From the IMG/VR virus record IMGVR_UViG_3300007963_002899, positions 1 to 20,821 of that record: 20,821 nt of DNA; one strand, given 5' to 3'. The notes below the pieces were generated by a model. That model was given only the letters and a program-made list of their open reading frames with translations. It did no database searches and was not told where the DNA came from. Positions within the stretch are counted from its first letter, which is position 1; each line of letters begins with the position of its first letter. Both the position numbers and the translations under genes were made by a program. The stretch is from a virus. Shown here in pieces: positions 5,508-16,647 of the stretch.

Positions 5508-7616
5508 CTACCCACGAAGGACCTCTCCGCTCTGCCTGCCTTCGTTCGGAACATCTCTATTCATCGAGTCAGGCTTAATACCGCCCTCTCCTCGGCCGGT
5601 CGTCCTAGACTCTTGTACCAACTCCTGCAGTCTCGGATCACGGACTATCGGATTGCCCTGCTCATCGAACTCCAGCAGTCTCTTCTCCTCCAACATAGCC
5701 GTCGCCGCTTTAATCATGGGCAGGATCTCCTCAACTAGCTGCTCATCGAATCCACGAACCAGCAGTCTACGAGCAAGCTCCGGCAAGTTCGGCGGCAAGC
5801 CCCAGATCTCTACGAACATCGGAGTCATGCCCGAGAACAGATTGAGCAAGTCCATCCACTGACTCCGCTCCACCGCTAGCGAGGTCGCATGAGACGTGAT
5901 GTCCATCGTCATGAGATACTCACCTTTAGCCATGTCAGCGGATATACTCAGGAATTTGTCCGCATTCTTGTCCACATTGAACAGTTTTTTCGGTCGGAAC
6001 TGAGCATCCATCTGCCACATCTTCCGAGCCTTGCGAACCTGGAACTCACTGATCAAAGAGCTCTTTCGATTCTCCCGACTCGTGTTCCGCTTCTCGATAA
6101 TGTTCGCTTCTGTCGCCGAGTCTGGATTAGGAGTCCGTCCTGGCTGAGGAGTCCCGAGCGCCCTGTCGAACATTGCCATCAGAGTGTTGAGCATCTCACC
6201 CTTCTCTGGCGGCACTTCATGGAACGGCAGCGGCATGATCGCCTTGCCAATCGATGAGTCCATCAGCCCAGGCACCTCAATAACCGATCCATCCGGCGCA
6301 TTAATAAGCTGCTGAATCTTCTCCGTATTCAGGCCGGAGGCCGGATCGACCACCCAGATATTCTTCTGCTTCCGAATGACTGAAAGGTTAGCGTCGAGGA
6401 CTTCATTGACGAGAGCCTGAACTGTATCACCACCACCTAGAAGTATCGTTGGCTTATGAAACCATCTTCGCAAGCCGGGAGTAAAACTGAGCGTCTCCAC
6501 CGGATAATCGTCGAGGCGGTCATAAGGCCACTCTTCCTCATAATTCAGAAACTTCTCGCTGCCCTCTGCAATGTTCAGCACAATGTCTCGATACTTCCCC
6601 TGCCCAACTGGGAAGTTCTTTGCCCACAGCTCCCACCCTCTCACCATGTCGAATCCGTCGTAGTCTGCCCCATCCTCCTTGGATGGAGAATCGAGCCACC
6701 GACTAGGCTTCAGATCCTTCGTATTCTCAAAGTTCGGATCTCCCTGCACTTCTTCCAGCGGAAGCTCCCAACCAAAGGCGCACCATCGTGCGTCCTGTGG
6801 CCCTTCCATGCTCATCAGATCTGTAATAAACTGATCCGACGGCCACCATATACCAAAGGGGCTCTCATGATGTACATTCGTGTTAGGATCAGGACTCTTC
6901 CTATCTAGAAACGCTTTATGTAGATCAACATGAGATTGAACTACTCCCTCCACAGCGGAGGCTATATCCTCACTCATGCCGAGGAGCCCACCTTGGAGGA
7001 TCTGCGTGTGGACGTCTATGTGGTGACGATGGTCTTGATCTTCCTCGACCCTGGTCACTTCACCTACGGCCAGAAAAAGGTTTTCCTCCAGGGGGTCCTC
7101 GAACACGAGTTCTGCGCCCACCCCCGGCTGGAGTAGCTCGTGTCTTGCACGCTCCATATCCTGAGTGTAGCCCAGCTTCGCCACCCCATAAGGGAAGAGA
7201 AAGGCGCTCAAAGCGACTCGCTCATCCACACGGAGTTGGTTCGTCTCTCGATACCGGTAGTTCACAATCTTGCTCTGACCCTGAGCCATATTCAAACTTT
7301 GTGGGTCGCTCGGATCAACAGGCAGCGATGCTCGCCGATCCTCAGCAAAGCTCTGGAAAACAGGCTCTCTATCGAGCATGTTCGAAAGGCTCTGATCAAT
7401 GTAGCCATAGACAATCCCGGACTTGGTTCGAGCAGTTACCTCATCCTGACTCATCGGACCGCCTGCAGACGCTTCCCTAGCCGTCGTCGGCTCGTTGTAG
7501 TACTGATCCGCTAACGTCTCGCTCGCTGCAAAGAGCGGCTTCAGCTGCCCGACCGTATAGTCAATGCGGGTCGACCAGAACTTAACTCTCTGATCCTCGC
7601 GTCGTGGATAGCTCAT
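5508..7616 (-). CDS. Portal protein, 702 aa
   Basis: This is the portal, the dodecameric ring at the capsid vertex through which DNA is packaged and ejected and to which the tail attaches. The assignment rests on its position directly after the large terminase, its size, and its general character: an acidic and aromatic N-terminal half followed by a long helical region. Residues 375-450 resemble the stem and crown-proximal part of portals, with the F-H-K-P-T-I-L-L-G-G-G-D element and the following helix. Residues 490-535 are a Pro/Asn linker followed by a basic helix. The C-terminal 50 residues are Arg/Gly/Glu-rich and probably disordered. ATG 7616 follows the terminase stop by about 20 bases. 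At about 700 residues it is in the size class of large portals such as P22's; specific family membership is not proven. Confidence 0.88.
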   Translation of the reverse strand: MSYPRREDQRVKFWSTRIDYTVGQLKPLFAASETLADQYYNEPTTAREASAGGPMSQDEVTARTKSGIVYGYIDQSLSNMLDREPVFQSFAEDRRASLPVDPSDPQSLNMAQGQSKIVNYRYRETNQLRVDERVALSAFLFPYGVAKLGYTQDMERARHELLQPGVGAELVFEDPLEENLFLAVGEVTRVEEDQDHRHHIDVHTQILQGGLLGMSEDIASAVEGVVQSHVDLHKAFLDRKSPDPNTNVHHESPFGIWWPSDQFITDLMSMEGPQDARWCAFGWELPLEEVQGDPNFENTKDLKPSRWLDSPSKEDGADYDGFDMVRGWELWAKNFPVGQGKYRDIVLNIAEGSEKFLNYEEEWPYDRLDDYPVETLSFTPGLRRWFHKPTILLGGGDTVQALVNEVLDANLSVIRKQKNIWVVDPASGLNTEKIQQLINAPDGSVIEVPGLMDSSIGKAIMPLPFHEVPPEKGEMLNTLMAMFDRALGTPQPGRTPNPDSATEANIIEKRNTSRENRKSSLISEFQVRKARKMWQMDAQFRPKKLFNVDKNADKFLSISADMAKGEYLMTMDITSHATSLAVERSQWMDLLNLFSGMTPMFVEIWGLPPNLPELARRLLVRGFDEQLVEEILPMIKAATAMLEEKRLLEFDEQGNPIVRDPRLQELVQESRTTGRGEGGIKPDSMNRDVPNEGRQSGEVLRG

Positions 7617-10282: not shown

Positions 10283-10311
10283 AATATACGAAAAGCACCG
10301 ACAGTTGTCAA
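10283..10311 (-). promoter_or_regulatory. Leftward promoter of the head operon (TTGACA-N17-TATATT)
   Basis: Reading the minus strand, TTGACA (10306-10311) is followed by exactly 17 bases and TATATT (10283-10288). The A of the ATG at 10276 is the seventh base after the -10 box, so the transcript should begin on the start codon. Two rightward promoters in the window have the same hexamers and spacing. Confidence 0.75.
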
Positions 10312-10376: not shown

Positions 10377-10401
10377 ACTGTGGGGATAATATCCCCAAAG
10401 T
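10377..10401. promoter_or_regulatory. Palindromic operator-like site O1
   Basis: Perfect 8-bp arms TGGGGATA and TATCCCCA surround one central A (10381-10397). Outer ACT and AGT triplets extend the symmetry to 25 bp. The same element recurs at 12772-12800 and 18245-18269, with a half-site at 11931-11944. It lies about 65 bp upstream of the leftward -35 box and about 25 bp before a TATGAT sequence (10425-10430) that could be a rightward -10 box. A dimeric phage regulator is the likely ligand. Confidence 0.65.
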
Positions 10402-12252: not shown

Positions 12253-12707
12253 CTAAACAATGGATAGGAAAAGCCCCTAGCCAGTGCCAGCTATGTGAGA
12301 GGAAACTAACCACATCCTTTATCGACGGTCGTGTGCAGAACGGACCTTGGTCGTCGACTATGACGTGGGCTATCGTGTGTGAGGGATGTCACCTATCACA
12401 CGGTGTAGGCTTTGGTACTGGTAAGGCCCAGAAGTTCGTCCTTGACGATAGCGGCGACTGGAACTTGACCATATGCGAGACAGTCGACATTGACGGAGAT
12501 CGCCCGTGGCAGTATTTCGGGAACCAGCTAATCCGCGAGGTCTTCGGTCAACTCGACGCAGGCCTCATCACGCAGGAGGAAGCCTGGGACAAGGTGACTG
12601 CCTGCGTCATTCAGATACACACTAACAGGGGGCTGACTGACAAGTTAGTCCACCAGGCGTTGGAGGAATTGATCCAGCGCACGATCGAGAAGAATATGAG
12701 TAAGTAA
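12249..12707 (+). CDS. Zinc-binding (CxxC/CxxCH) protein, 152 aa
   Basis: Cys13-x-x-Cys16 and Cys44-x-x-Cys47-His48 form a treble-clef-like metal site. Between them lies F-I-D-G-R..G-P-W, and after them G-x-G-F-G-T-G-K-A-Q-K-F (residues 52-63). This combination is familiar from small phage proteins of unknown function. The C-terminal half (about residues 95-150) is helical and acidic and does not match that group, so it is probably an added domain. The start is GTG 12249, overlapping the previous stop. A DNA- or RNA-binding role is plausible for the metal-binding part. A strong hairpin follows the stop, suggesting the transcription unit ends here. Confidence 0.8.
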   Translation: MTKQWIGKAPSQCQLCERKLTTSFIDGRVQNGPWSSTMTWAIVCEGCHLSHGVGFGTGKAQKFVLDDSGDWNLTICETVDIDGDRPWQYFGNQLIREVFGQLDAGLITQEEAWDKVTACVIQIHTNRGLTDKLVHQALEELIQRTIEKNMSK

Positions 12708-12712
12708 CGAAA

Positions 12713-12757
12713 CTAGCGCCAGTAGGTCGGTAGTTGTCCAACGCCTACTGGTGCTAG
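12713..12757 (+). terminator. 14-bp hairpin, possible transcription terminator
   Basis: CTAGCGCCAGTAGG (12713-12726) pairs with CCTACTGGTGCTAG (12744-12757), with one G-T wobble and a 17-base loop. It lies six bases after the stop of the zinc-binding gene and directly before operator O2. The following sequence is only moderately T-rich, so it may be a weak or factor-assisted terminator. Confidence 0.45.
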
Positions 12758-12771
12758 CCTACATTTGTATT

Positions 12772-12800
12772 CCACTGTGGGGATTTAATCCCCAAACTGG
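12772..12800. promoter_or_regulatory. Palindromic operator-like site O2
   Basis: Arms TGGGGATT (12778-12785) and AATCCCCA (12787-12794) are perfect around a central T, and outer CCA/TGG triplets extend the symmetry. It sits between the hairpin at 12713-12757 and the gene at 12824, with TATAGA (12805-12810) just downstream as a possible -10 box, so it probably controls a promoter here. Confidence 0.6.
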
Positions 12801-12823
12801 AGAGTATAGACAGCGAGGAACTA

Positions 12824-13253: not shown

Positions 13254-13382
13254 ATGCACTCGAACAAGCAGCACCCCGCGAGGTCTGGGTCTGATAGTAA
13301 GAAGGCCCAGGCGCATCGCGCTCGTCGACGGAGACTGCTCAAAATCAGTCGCGCGAGCAAGCAGCGCAACCGCAGGAAGTAG
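13254..13382 (+). CDS. Very basic 42-aa peptide
   Basis: ATG 13254 opens a 42-residue frame ending in TAG. Well over a third of the residues are Lys, Arg or His, including an R-A-R-R-R-R run (residues 22-27) and an R-A-S-K-Q-R-N-R-R-K tail. There are almost no acidic residues. The composition resembles small ribosomal or nucleic-acid-binding proteins. AAGTGAG upstream is a modest ribosome-binding site. The stop lies seven bases before the tRNA-like structure at 13390, so peptide and RNA may share a transcript, and an RNA-binding role is an attractive but untested idea. No family was recognised, and the frame could be a chance product. Confidence 0.5.
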   Translation: MHSNKQHPARSGSDSKKAQAHRARRRRLLKISRASKQRNRRK

Positions 13383-13389
13383 ACCTATC

Positions 13390-13508
13390 ATTCGGGACCT
13401 TGTCACTAGGGACTTAATCACCCCTAGTGTTGTAGGTGGCTACGATTAGTTACAAGGACGGCTAGGCTGATTACCTTTGGCCGCGAGGTTCAACTCCTCT
13501 CCCGAATA
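13390..13508 (+). ncRNA. tRNA-like structured RNA with enlarged D-arm (divergent tRNA or tRNA mimic)
   Basis: ATTCGGG (13390-13396) pairs perfectly with CCCGAAT (13501-13507), followed by A as discriminator and CC. Directly inside the 3' strand is a T-arm, GAGG-TTCAACT-CCTC (13485-13499), with a canonical T-loop. CCTTGT (13398-13403) pairs with ACAAGG (13452-13457) at the D-arm position. This helix encloses an 8-bp hairpin, CACTAGGG/CCCTAGTG (13404-13429), and a small GTAG/CTAC hairpin (13432-13443). CGGCTAGG (13459-13466) and CC-TT-TGGCCG (13474-13483) form an anticodon-like arm with a 7-base loop CTGATTA, which would read GAU. The variable loop is almost absent. At 119 bases it is far longer than a tRNA of this type, and position 37 is U rather than a purine. 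It may be a tRNA mimic, a degenerate tRNA or a new RNA. Confidence 0.5.
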
Positions 13509-13531: not shown

Positions 13532-13891
13532 ATGACCCCAGCAAAGATTAGAGAGCACGCACTCGCAGTTGCTCTCGATCCTGCGTTCGTCAAGTCCGCC
13601 GAGTACGGGACTGCTAAGCACGTCTCGCTATTCTACGACGACGGCGAGCATCAGAGTACCAAGGCGGGTGAACTCTACGGGCAGCGGACGTTTCAATGCC
13701 TACAGGAGCCTACCCACCCGCAAGGGATGTTCGGTCCCTTGCCCGTAGTTCACAAGAACACTGCGAACAACTCCGGTGACTTTCACTTCGTCTTTGTATC
13801 CGATGAGGACGGAGATAAGCTGGAGGAAATGGCACGGCAGTGCCAGGAAGGTATGCTCGAGACGTGCCCATTCCACAGTTCGGACCGCTAG
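13532..13891 (+). CDS. Hypothetical protein, 119 aa
   Basis: Unrecognised. The N-terminus is a helix (T-P-A-K-I-R-E-H-A-L-A-V-A-L), the middle is polar with a H-V-S-L-F-Y-D-D-G strand, and residues 80-96 contain F-H-F-V-F-V-S-D-E-D-G. Cys56, Cys103 and Cys111 are present, but there is no clear metal-binding pair. ATG 13532 has GGAG seven to eight bases upstream. It follows the tRNA-like RNA by 23 bases. Confidence 0.78.
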   Translation: MTPAKIREHALAVALDPAFVKSAEYGTAKHVSLFYDDGEHQSTKAGELYGQRTFQCLQEPTHPQGMFGPLPVVHKNTANNSGDFHFVFVSDEDGDKLEEMARQCQEGMLETCPFHSSDR

Positions 13892-14430: not shown

Positions 14431-14459
14431 TTGACACGTCGACAATTCCGATATATATT
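14431..14459 (+). promoter_or_regulatory. Rightward promoter (TTGACA-N17-TATATT)
   Basis: A perfect -35 box TTGACA (14431-14436), 17 bases, and TATATT (14454-14459). Transcription should begin near 14466, giving a leader of about 44 bases with AGGAGG before the gene at 14510. Confidence 0.75.
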
Positions 14460-14687: not shown

Positions 14688-14894
14688 ATGCCCGTCTATC
14701 ACGTAACTAAGTCCGTCATGGTCGAGGCAACATCGCCCGAGGATGCGGCGCTAAAGGGAAATACAGAACTCGGCAACCCAGAACTATTCGTTGAGGTTGT
14801 CAAAGATGGTGAACACTCGATGACGCTTTACTCCCCAACCCTAATCGTGGGTCTGCCCATCGAAGGAGATCACGACTCCACGACCATCGCCTAG
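14688..14894 (+). CDS. Hypothetical protein, 68 aa
   Basis: Unrecognised. The protein begins MPVYHVTKSVMVEATSPEDAALKG, a strand followed by an A-x-S-P-E-D-A-A helix. This layout is common among short phage and bacterial proteins of unknown role. The C-terminal half is acidic and strand-rich. It has no strong ribosome-binding site and probably depends on coupling to the gene ending at 14683. A large hairpin follows it. Confidence 0.72.
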   Translation: MPVYHVTKSVMVEATSPEDAALKGNTELGNPELFVEVVKDGEHSMTLYSPTLIVGLPIEGDHDSTTIA

Positions 14895-14972
14895 GCCAGA
14901 TCGTCTGGCCATGCTAGCGGTTCGCTAGGTCTAGAGCTCGCGGTCTTCGCCTAGCGGCCGCTAGCACATTTT
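14894..14972 (+). terminator. Tandem hairpins, candidate terminator
   Basis: First a 6-bp hairpin GGCCAG/CTGGCC (14894-14910) touching the stop codon. Then a nested stem: TGCTAGCGG (14912-14920) with CCGCTAGCA (14958-14966), and inside it CGCTAGG (14923-14929) with CCTAGCG (14950-14956), joined by a small internal loop. CA and four T follow. The T-run is short, so termination may be partial; RNA processing or stabilisation is an alternative. Confidence 0.5.
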
Positions 14973-14996
14973 AACTACTCACAAGGAGTATGTTAA

Positions 14997-15278
14997 ATGC
15001 CTTACACAATAGTGCAGCATAGCGCGTACGGATACAACTATAACCCACAGTTCCGTCGCGGACTAGAGACCCGTCATGTAGACACCAAGGCTGATCAGGC
15101 CAAGGTTAGCAAGGCGGGCGGTGTGCTCATGGACTACCTCGAGGCTGAGGAACTCGCTAGGATCGAGTCGTATCCTGCAAGCAACAACGGACTAATTCCA
15201 TCAGCGCTGGGCACGTTCGCAAGGGCCAAGGTGGACGGCTTGCGTATCTATGTTCCTGAAGTAAAGATCAACTCATGA
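14997..15278 (+). CDS. Hypothetical protein, 93 aa
   Basis: Unrecognised. AAGGAG lies eight bases before ATG 14997, an excellent ribosome-binding site. The N-terminus is Tyr-rich (Y-G-Y-N-Y-N-P), the middle is polar and basic, and residues 45-60 form a helix (M-D-Y-L-E-A-E-E-L-A-R-I). The C-terminus is strand-like. The next gene starts inside its stop codon (ATGA). Confidence 0.78.
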   Translation: MPYTIVQHSAYGYNYNPQFRRGLETRHVDTKADQAKVSKAGGVLMDYLEAEELARIESYPASNNGLIPSALGTFARAKVDGLRIYVPEVKINS

Positions 15279-16618: not shown

Positions 16619-16647
16619 TTGACATCTCGGTTCGATTGTTGTATATT
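16619..16647 (+). promoter_or_regulatory. Rightward promoter (TTGACA-N17-TATATT)
   Basis: TTGACA (16619-16624), 17 bases, TATATT (16642-16647). Start of transcription should be near 16654, about 55 bases before the gene at 16709. Like the promoter at 14431 it is preceded by C and a pyrimidine-rich stretch. Confidence 0.72.

Follow-up and report, generated by a model that had tools for sequence, protein, structure and literature searches.

A canonical tRNA (RF00005) carries a 7-bp acceptor helix stacked on a 5-bp T-arm with a TTCRANY loop, a D-arm of 3–4 bp with a 7–11-nt loop containing GG, and an anticodon arm of 5 bp with a 7-nt loop having U at position 33. A 12-bp acceptor and T-arm stack with its T-loop constitutes the minimal substrate of RNase P. 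The phi29-type packaging RNA is about 120 nt long and shows loop–loop complementarity. The aptamer of the yjdF (azaaromatic) riboswitch (RF01764) is a tRNA-like four-way junction located in the mRNA leader just upstream of the Shine–Dalgarno sequence, with which its T-loop pairs in the off state; tRNA-like structures at such positions raise translation 2- to 6.3-fold (PMC9142559). YrlA, a bacterial Y RNA (RF02553), is 90–150 nt long and has tRNA-like D, T and acceptor arms (PMC8394870), and Y RNAs have been reported in mycobacteriophages (PMC12282133). Phage tRNA-like RNAs come to light chiefly through tRNA finders, and forms with extra arms escape these programs.

We analysed a 20,821-bp IMG/VR viral record without end repeats (hereafter the window, meaning the whole stretch of DNA), in which an initial annotation had pointed out a tRNA-like RNA that belongs to no standard tRNA class. 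Like a canonical tRNA, this element has an acceptor, a T-arm with a TTCRANY loop, a 12-bp stack, A at the discriminator position and a 7-nt anticodon-like loop lying 15 nt before the T-loop. Its stack is made of 8 + 4 bp instead of 7 + 5, the register being shifted by one pair. It is unlike tRNA in its D-arm, where a 6-bp helix encloses two hairpins, in its anticodon-like arm, which has U at position 33 of the loop but is bulged (5 + 3 bp) and weak, and in having neither an encoded CCA nor a match to the tRNA model. With the yjdF riboswitch it shares the four-way junction, the tRNA-like form and the leader position, but its sequence and lengths differ and no ligand is known. It resembles YrlA in size and in its arms; however, the ends of its RNA form the acceptor itself, whereas YrlA has a separate basal stem, and no Rsr-like protein was found among the matched families of the window. 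The likeness to the packaging RNA is a lead only; this phage has the usual large terminase, Rfam gave no match and no terminal location is evident for the element.

ARAGORN called neither a tRNA nor a tmRNA at the element. The covariance-model scan called for by the initial annotation was run with Rfam and placed the element outside the known families: there was no match at the gathering threshold, the tRNA model RF00005 gave none even at E 10, and the models of YrlA (RF02553) and of the yjdF riboswitch (RF01764) had no match in the window at E 10. For tmRNA, which combines tRNA-like ends with a tag-peptide frame and pseudoknots, Rfam also gave no match, and stop codons are present in all frames of the element. 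By the tests applied, the element is tRNA-like but outside the tRNA family, YrlA and the yjdF riboswitch, in agreement with the absence of a standard class noted earlier.

Predicted fold and anatomy of the element

The minimum-energy fold of 13390–13508 is a four-way junction (−46.5 kcal/mol, z −3.83), and none of 200 shuffles was as stable. It contains 40 pairs, involving 80 of the 119 bases (67%), and did not change when the element was folded within 149, 198, 221, 281 and 421 nt of its message. Pair probabilities across the element are 0.72–1.0, except for the inner part of the anticodon-like arm (Table 1).

Table 1. Features of the tRNA-like element and of the adjoining genes (window coordinates)
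Feature	Coordinates	Strand	Basis
Small basic ORF of 42 aa, 7 nt upstream of the element	13254..13382	+	Sequence; no PHROG match
tRNA-like four-way-junction RNA element (whole)	13390..13508	+	Predicted fold, context-robust; descriptor chance test
Acceptor-like helix, 5' strand AUUCGGGA, pairs with 13500–13507	13390..13397	+	Pair probabilities 0.82–1.0
D-helix, 6 bp, 5' strand CCUUGU against ACAAGG (13452–13457)	13398..13403	+	Pair probabilities 0.81–0.95
Hairpin 1, 8 perfect bp CACUAGGG/CCCUAGUG, 10-nt loop ACUUAAUCAC	13404..13429	+	Pair probabilities 0.87–0.99
Hairpin 2, 6 bp (one U-G), loop GUGG	13430..13445	+	Pair probabilities 0.72–0.95
Anticodon-like arm, 5 + 3 bp with UU bulge	13459..13483	+	Pair probabilities: outer 5 bp 0.87–0.92, inner 3 bp 0.42–0.61
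T-arm GAGG-UUCAACU-CCUC, loop fits TTCRANY	13485..13499	+	Sequence; pair probabilities 0.96
Acceptor-like helix, 3' strand UCCCGAAU; then A13508 (discriminator position), CC-U	13500..13507	+	Sequence, fold
Shine–Dalgarno GGAG, 13 nt after A13508, 6 nt before start codon	13522..13525	+	Sequence
Downstream ORF, 119 aa	13532..13891	+	No Pfam or PHROG match

Sequence and predicted fold bear out the coordinates and the four-way topology given by the initial annotation, along with its T-loop TTCAACT (UUCAACU at 13489–13495), its 6-bp D-arm helix enclosing two hairpins, one of them of 8 perfect bp, and its estimate that about two thirds of the bases pair. Two of its arms are redrawn here. The acceptor-like helix, described as 7 bp, is present but 8 bp long, since A13397 pairs with U13500, and the T-stem (13485–13488/13496–13499) is then 4 bp; the 12 bp so stacked are as in tRNA. 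The anticodon-like arm does present the 7-base loop CTGATTA, and its stem is now resolved into an outer helix and, beyond the bulge, weak inner pairs. A conserved reading frame through the region had been named as an observation that would speak against an RNA; none crosses the element, and all six are closed.

The fifth pair position of the T-arm is a C-U mismatch, and the 3' end of the element reads A-CC-U. The anticodon-like loop CUGAUUA (13467–13473) would present the triplet GAU (Ile), and its 15-nt distance from the T-loop is the ordinary tRNA spacing. Hairpin 2, with GG in its loop, contains AGGUGGCUA (13434–13442), which by inspection is similar to a tRNA D-loop (A14 G15 .. G18 G19 .. 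A21). Relative to a standard tRNA the element is longer by 46 nt, with 31 before and 15 after this segment. UAAUCA (13415–13420) in the loop of hairpin 1 is complementary to UGAUUA (13468–13473) in the anticodon-like loop over 6 bp, a duplex of −3.6 kcal/mol. The chance of at least six Watson–Crick pairs is 0.3% for these two loops and 0.8% for any pair of loops, and as a sign of a kissing interaction the complementarity is no more than suggestive. We also considered reading hairpin 1 as tRNA-Leu(UAA) and dropped this, since the arms come in the wrong order and a mismatch would close the loop.

Folding energy alone is unexceptional at the element: several sites in the window have lower z values. 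The reverse strand folds equally well (−46.9 kcal/mol, z −4.77), and therefore the strand assignment rests on the T-loop sequence and the direction of the genes.

The tRNA-like arrangement in shuffled and phage DNA

We defined a descriptor comprising a TTCRANY T-loop, a 4-bp stem and a 7-bp helix in the tRNA register, both helices being present in the minimum-energy fold. When the whole window was shuffled preserving dinucleotides, 1 of 1000 shuffles matched it on either strand, which sets the tRNA-like anatomy beyond chance for this window, although at p ∼0.001 per window such a match could turn up now and then among thousands of windows read, and this one had been picked from a larger scan. 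In 1.59 Mb of other DNA, almost all from phages, the descriptor retrieved 59 ARAGORN tRNAs and 10 other sites. Eight of the ten share their contig with ARAGORN tRNAs, and the majority of the eight resemble unusual tRNAs; the two off such contigs are L076 (68 nt) and L130 (139 nt). As the matches were almost all tRNAs or tRNA-like, sites having this arrangement are nearly always tRNA-like. The fold of the element is very unlikely to have arisen by chance.

The L130 site (268–406, − strand; z −2.65) is an expanded tRNA-like RNA in an unrelated 38.7-kb virus contig. Besides a 7-bp acceptor, a T-arm and a D-like hairpin, it carries a long arm in the centre and one additional hairpin, and it was matched by neither ARAGORN nor Rfam. 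It ends 29 nt upstream of the start codon of an ORF that by inspection is YqaJ-like. It has no evident sequence relation to the element in the window and shares its placement.

Several unusual tRNA-like genes skipped by ARAGORN are present on tRNA-bearing phage contigs: L122 8733–9002 (−), and L128 4115–4187 and 9016–9092 (−). A 101-nt tRNA at L127 1182–1282 (+), also skipped by ARAGORN and found by Rfam, has two extra hairpins between its anticodon arm (UAU, Ile, by inspection) and T-arm, one of them with the loop CUGAUUA.

Genome and relatives

The record's origin in IMG/VR and the matches to TerL and helicase support the phage origin proposed earlier. The left arm encodes on the − strand TerL (PHROG 38) and a YkuD L,D-transpeptidase; beside TerL, the probable TerS and portal are named by position, without a family match. 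The right arm runs on the + strand; besides numerous small ORFs it has an M15 peptidase/endolysin, a UvrD-type helicase and a dCMP deaminase. The identity of TerL to the best-covered named phages does not exceed about 40%, and the portal-sized protein and TerS had no match in them. None of the scanned window proteins matched a recombinase. The element occupies the gap between two co-directional ORFs, and the AlphaFold model of the downstream product is uninformative (pLDDT 44). Beside the element we found neither a promoter-like site nor a terminator-like hairpin belonging to it; within the scanned right arm, the best-matching + strand promoters lie downstream, at 14431–14459 and 16619–16647 (TTGACA-17-TATATT, near-consensus). 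The surrounding genes would be expressed early, to judge by how small the ORFs are and by their neighbours.

Single-query searches with ORF 13532 and the helicase gave no relatives. The TerL profile retrieved 80 loci, 7 of them close, and the TerS profile 33 relatives, which by sequence profile together form a small uncultured family. The nearest by TerS, L087 (100%) and L088 (97%), are near-identical contigs ending at about 11.8 kb, before the element. The helicase profile had L116 as its sole close relative. L116/L090 (TerS 60%, helicase 63% identity), largely collinear with the window in the right arm, is the best relative covering the region, and neither the descriptor nor a single-sequence model detected the element there. 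The same was true of the other family contigs searched, several of which are partial and possibly short of the corresponding region. The contigs of the family yielded no tRNA. A BLAST search of phages and plasmids brought up nothing notable for the element, three loop sequence patterns run over the viral collection yielded chance matches and unrelated tRNAs only, and a TerS profile search of genome contigs revealed no prophage relative. No homologue, and hence no covariation in support of the helices, was found.

The single-sequence covariance model (R1) aligned the 3' half of the element to ordinary phage tRNAs. The T-loop/acceptor/ACC string is common to three contigs (two genomes and one virus), in all of which it lies in tRNA-Leu genes with different T-stems, a weak hint, at the level of sequence, of where the element came from.

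A cis-acting leader as the proposed role

Lying 13 nt upstream of the Shine–Dalgarno, the element is no less likely to act in cis than as a free RNA. Because of its co-directional position, the lack of its own promoter or terminator and the strong hairpins in two other gaps, our first choice is that the element acts in cis, as a tRNA-like structure in the intercistronic leader of gene 13532–13891 working on its own message (probability about 0.4). More generally, it would probably serve in the control or processing of the neighbouring message. The four-way junction would form within a polycistronic transcript, where the acceptor/T stack and the T-loop would give a tRNA-like elbow, for which GUGG in hairpin 2 may supply the D-loop side. 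The element might then keep the pyrimidine-rich T-arm/acceptor strand off the Shine–Dalgarno, attract ribosomes to it, or separate the two cistrons through an RNase P cut at 13389/13390; these actions could also be combined. The analysis shows the sequence, the predicted fold with its statistics, the position and the lack of a reading frame; transcription and early expression, the tertiary elbow, the loop–loop pairing and each step of action on the message are what we infer.

Consistent with a cis-acting leader, the fold is robust in the mRNA context, other long gaps of the right arm have strong hairpins upstream of start codons (12713–12757 and 14893–14966), and the unrelated L130 RNA is likewise located upstream of a start codon. 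The yjdF aptamer provides a precedent. When the 5' strand of the acceptor was blocked in silico, the T-arm/acceptor 3' strand paired with the Shine–Dalgarno and AUG region, and the unpaired probability of GGAG was 0.00–0.10. On the other hand, the complementarity of the T-arm strand to this Shine–Dalgarno is unremarkable: of the 23 further start regions of the window, 4 score higher and one ties. In addition, the Shine–Dalgarno sits for the most part in a weak local hairpin also when the tRNA-like fold is intact, the L116/L090 relative does without the element, and no homologue was found that would show covariation. Since the same strand would match a number of other start regions equally well or more strongly, the alternative pairing is not specific to this gene and does not establish an anti-Shine–Dalgarno switch.

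Alternative explanations

It is possible, but on balance doubtful, that the element acts in trans as a free tRNA mimic. An RNA of ∼119 nt would be released by RNase P together with host 3' nucleases, CCA might be completed on the ...ACC end, and the product would bind a tRNA-binding enzyme, for example as a decoy that occupies a tRNA-targeting nuclease, while hairpin 1 masks the anticodon-like loop. The 12-bp acceptor and T-arm with its T-loop, A13508-CC at the 3' end and the low chance of the loop–loop complementarity are in keeping with this, as is the finding that phage tRNAs counter tRNA-cleaving defence (PMC11455837). They have to be set against the unencoded CCA, the absence of promoter-like or terminator-like sites beside the element, the lack of homologues and the weak inner stem of the anticodon-like arm.

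We consider it unlikely that hairpin-rich intergenic DNA merely resembles a tRNA, by chance or as a generic fold, without any tRNA-related role. Stronger local folds elsewhere in the window, the equal folding of both strands, the absence of a counterpart in L116/L090 or other related contigs and the fact that this window is one of many read would all fit such a reading; however, it has to accommodate the single match in 1000 window shuffles, the two descriptor matches outside tRNA-bearing contigs in 1.59 Mb, and the robustness of the fold in context.

A degenerated or rearranged tRNA gene, its 3' half derived from an ordinary tRNA, its 5' half rebuilt by the 46-nt insertion and its translation function lost, appears rather improbable. 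Although the 3' half keeps the tRNA spacing and is aligned to ordinary tRNAs by model R1, the shared string lies in tRNA-Leu genes in all three contigs found and hairpin 2 contains the D-loop-like AGGUGGCUA, the Rfam tRNA model fails here at E 10, yet it detects the 101-nt L127 tRNA with its extra arms. Eight perfect acceptor pairs and a perfect 8-bp hairpin are also unlike the products of decay, and the family's contigs are devoid of detected tRNAs.

A phage attachment site whose 3' half duplicates the 3' terminus of the host tRNA gene used for integration is highly improbable: integration does commonly yield partial tRNA genes (PMC9897764), but the different T-stems of the string-sharing tRNA-Leu genes speak against a copy of a known host tRNA, no recombinase was found in the scanned window proteins or, by inspection, among the larger L116 ORFs, the fifth T-arm pair is mismatched, a matching 5' acceptor strand would be needless, and the string GGTTCAACTCC-TCT-CCCGAATACC is in no GTDB representative.

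Should the element prove genuine and have a function, tRNA mimics that regulate translation, bring in RNase P or divert tRNA-targeting defences may be encoded in phage operons, and further examples would be retrieved with a simple acceptor/T-arm descriptor. It seems to us improbable at present that the element represents a novel class of RNA in phages, in which an expanded tRNA mimic pairs a D-arm hairpin loop-to-loop with its anticodon-like loop and engages tRNA-binding enzymes or ribosomes without being able to decode; L130 268–406 (−), from an unrelated phage, could then be another example, expanded in a different way.

Other structures in the window and in a relative

The strongest local RNA fold of the scan is at 14893–14966 (+), just upstream of ORF 14997 (z −5.6 for 14870–15000), where a hairpin of the GGCCAGAUCGUCUGGCC type precedes a long one formed by GCUAGCGG.../CCGCUAGC. 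Another long hairpin, CTAGCGCCAGTAGG...CCTACTGGTGCTAG, is present at 12713–12757 (+) between ORFs 12249 and 12824 (z −5.8 for 12705–12823). The near-consensus promoter TTGACA-17-TATATT also occurs at 10311–10283 (−). Similar TTGACA...TATATT sites are visible in L090, where a long hairpin-based structure with a GC-rich basal stem (6712–6783, −) directly precedes one such promoter-like site. The sequence ACTGTGGGGAT... is repeated at ∼10377–10401, ∼11933 and 12771–12801, at two of the three sites within a palindrome containing ATCCCC, and these repeats are possible operator or replication sites.
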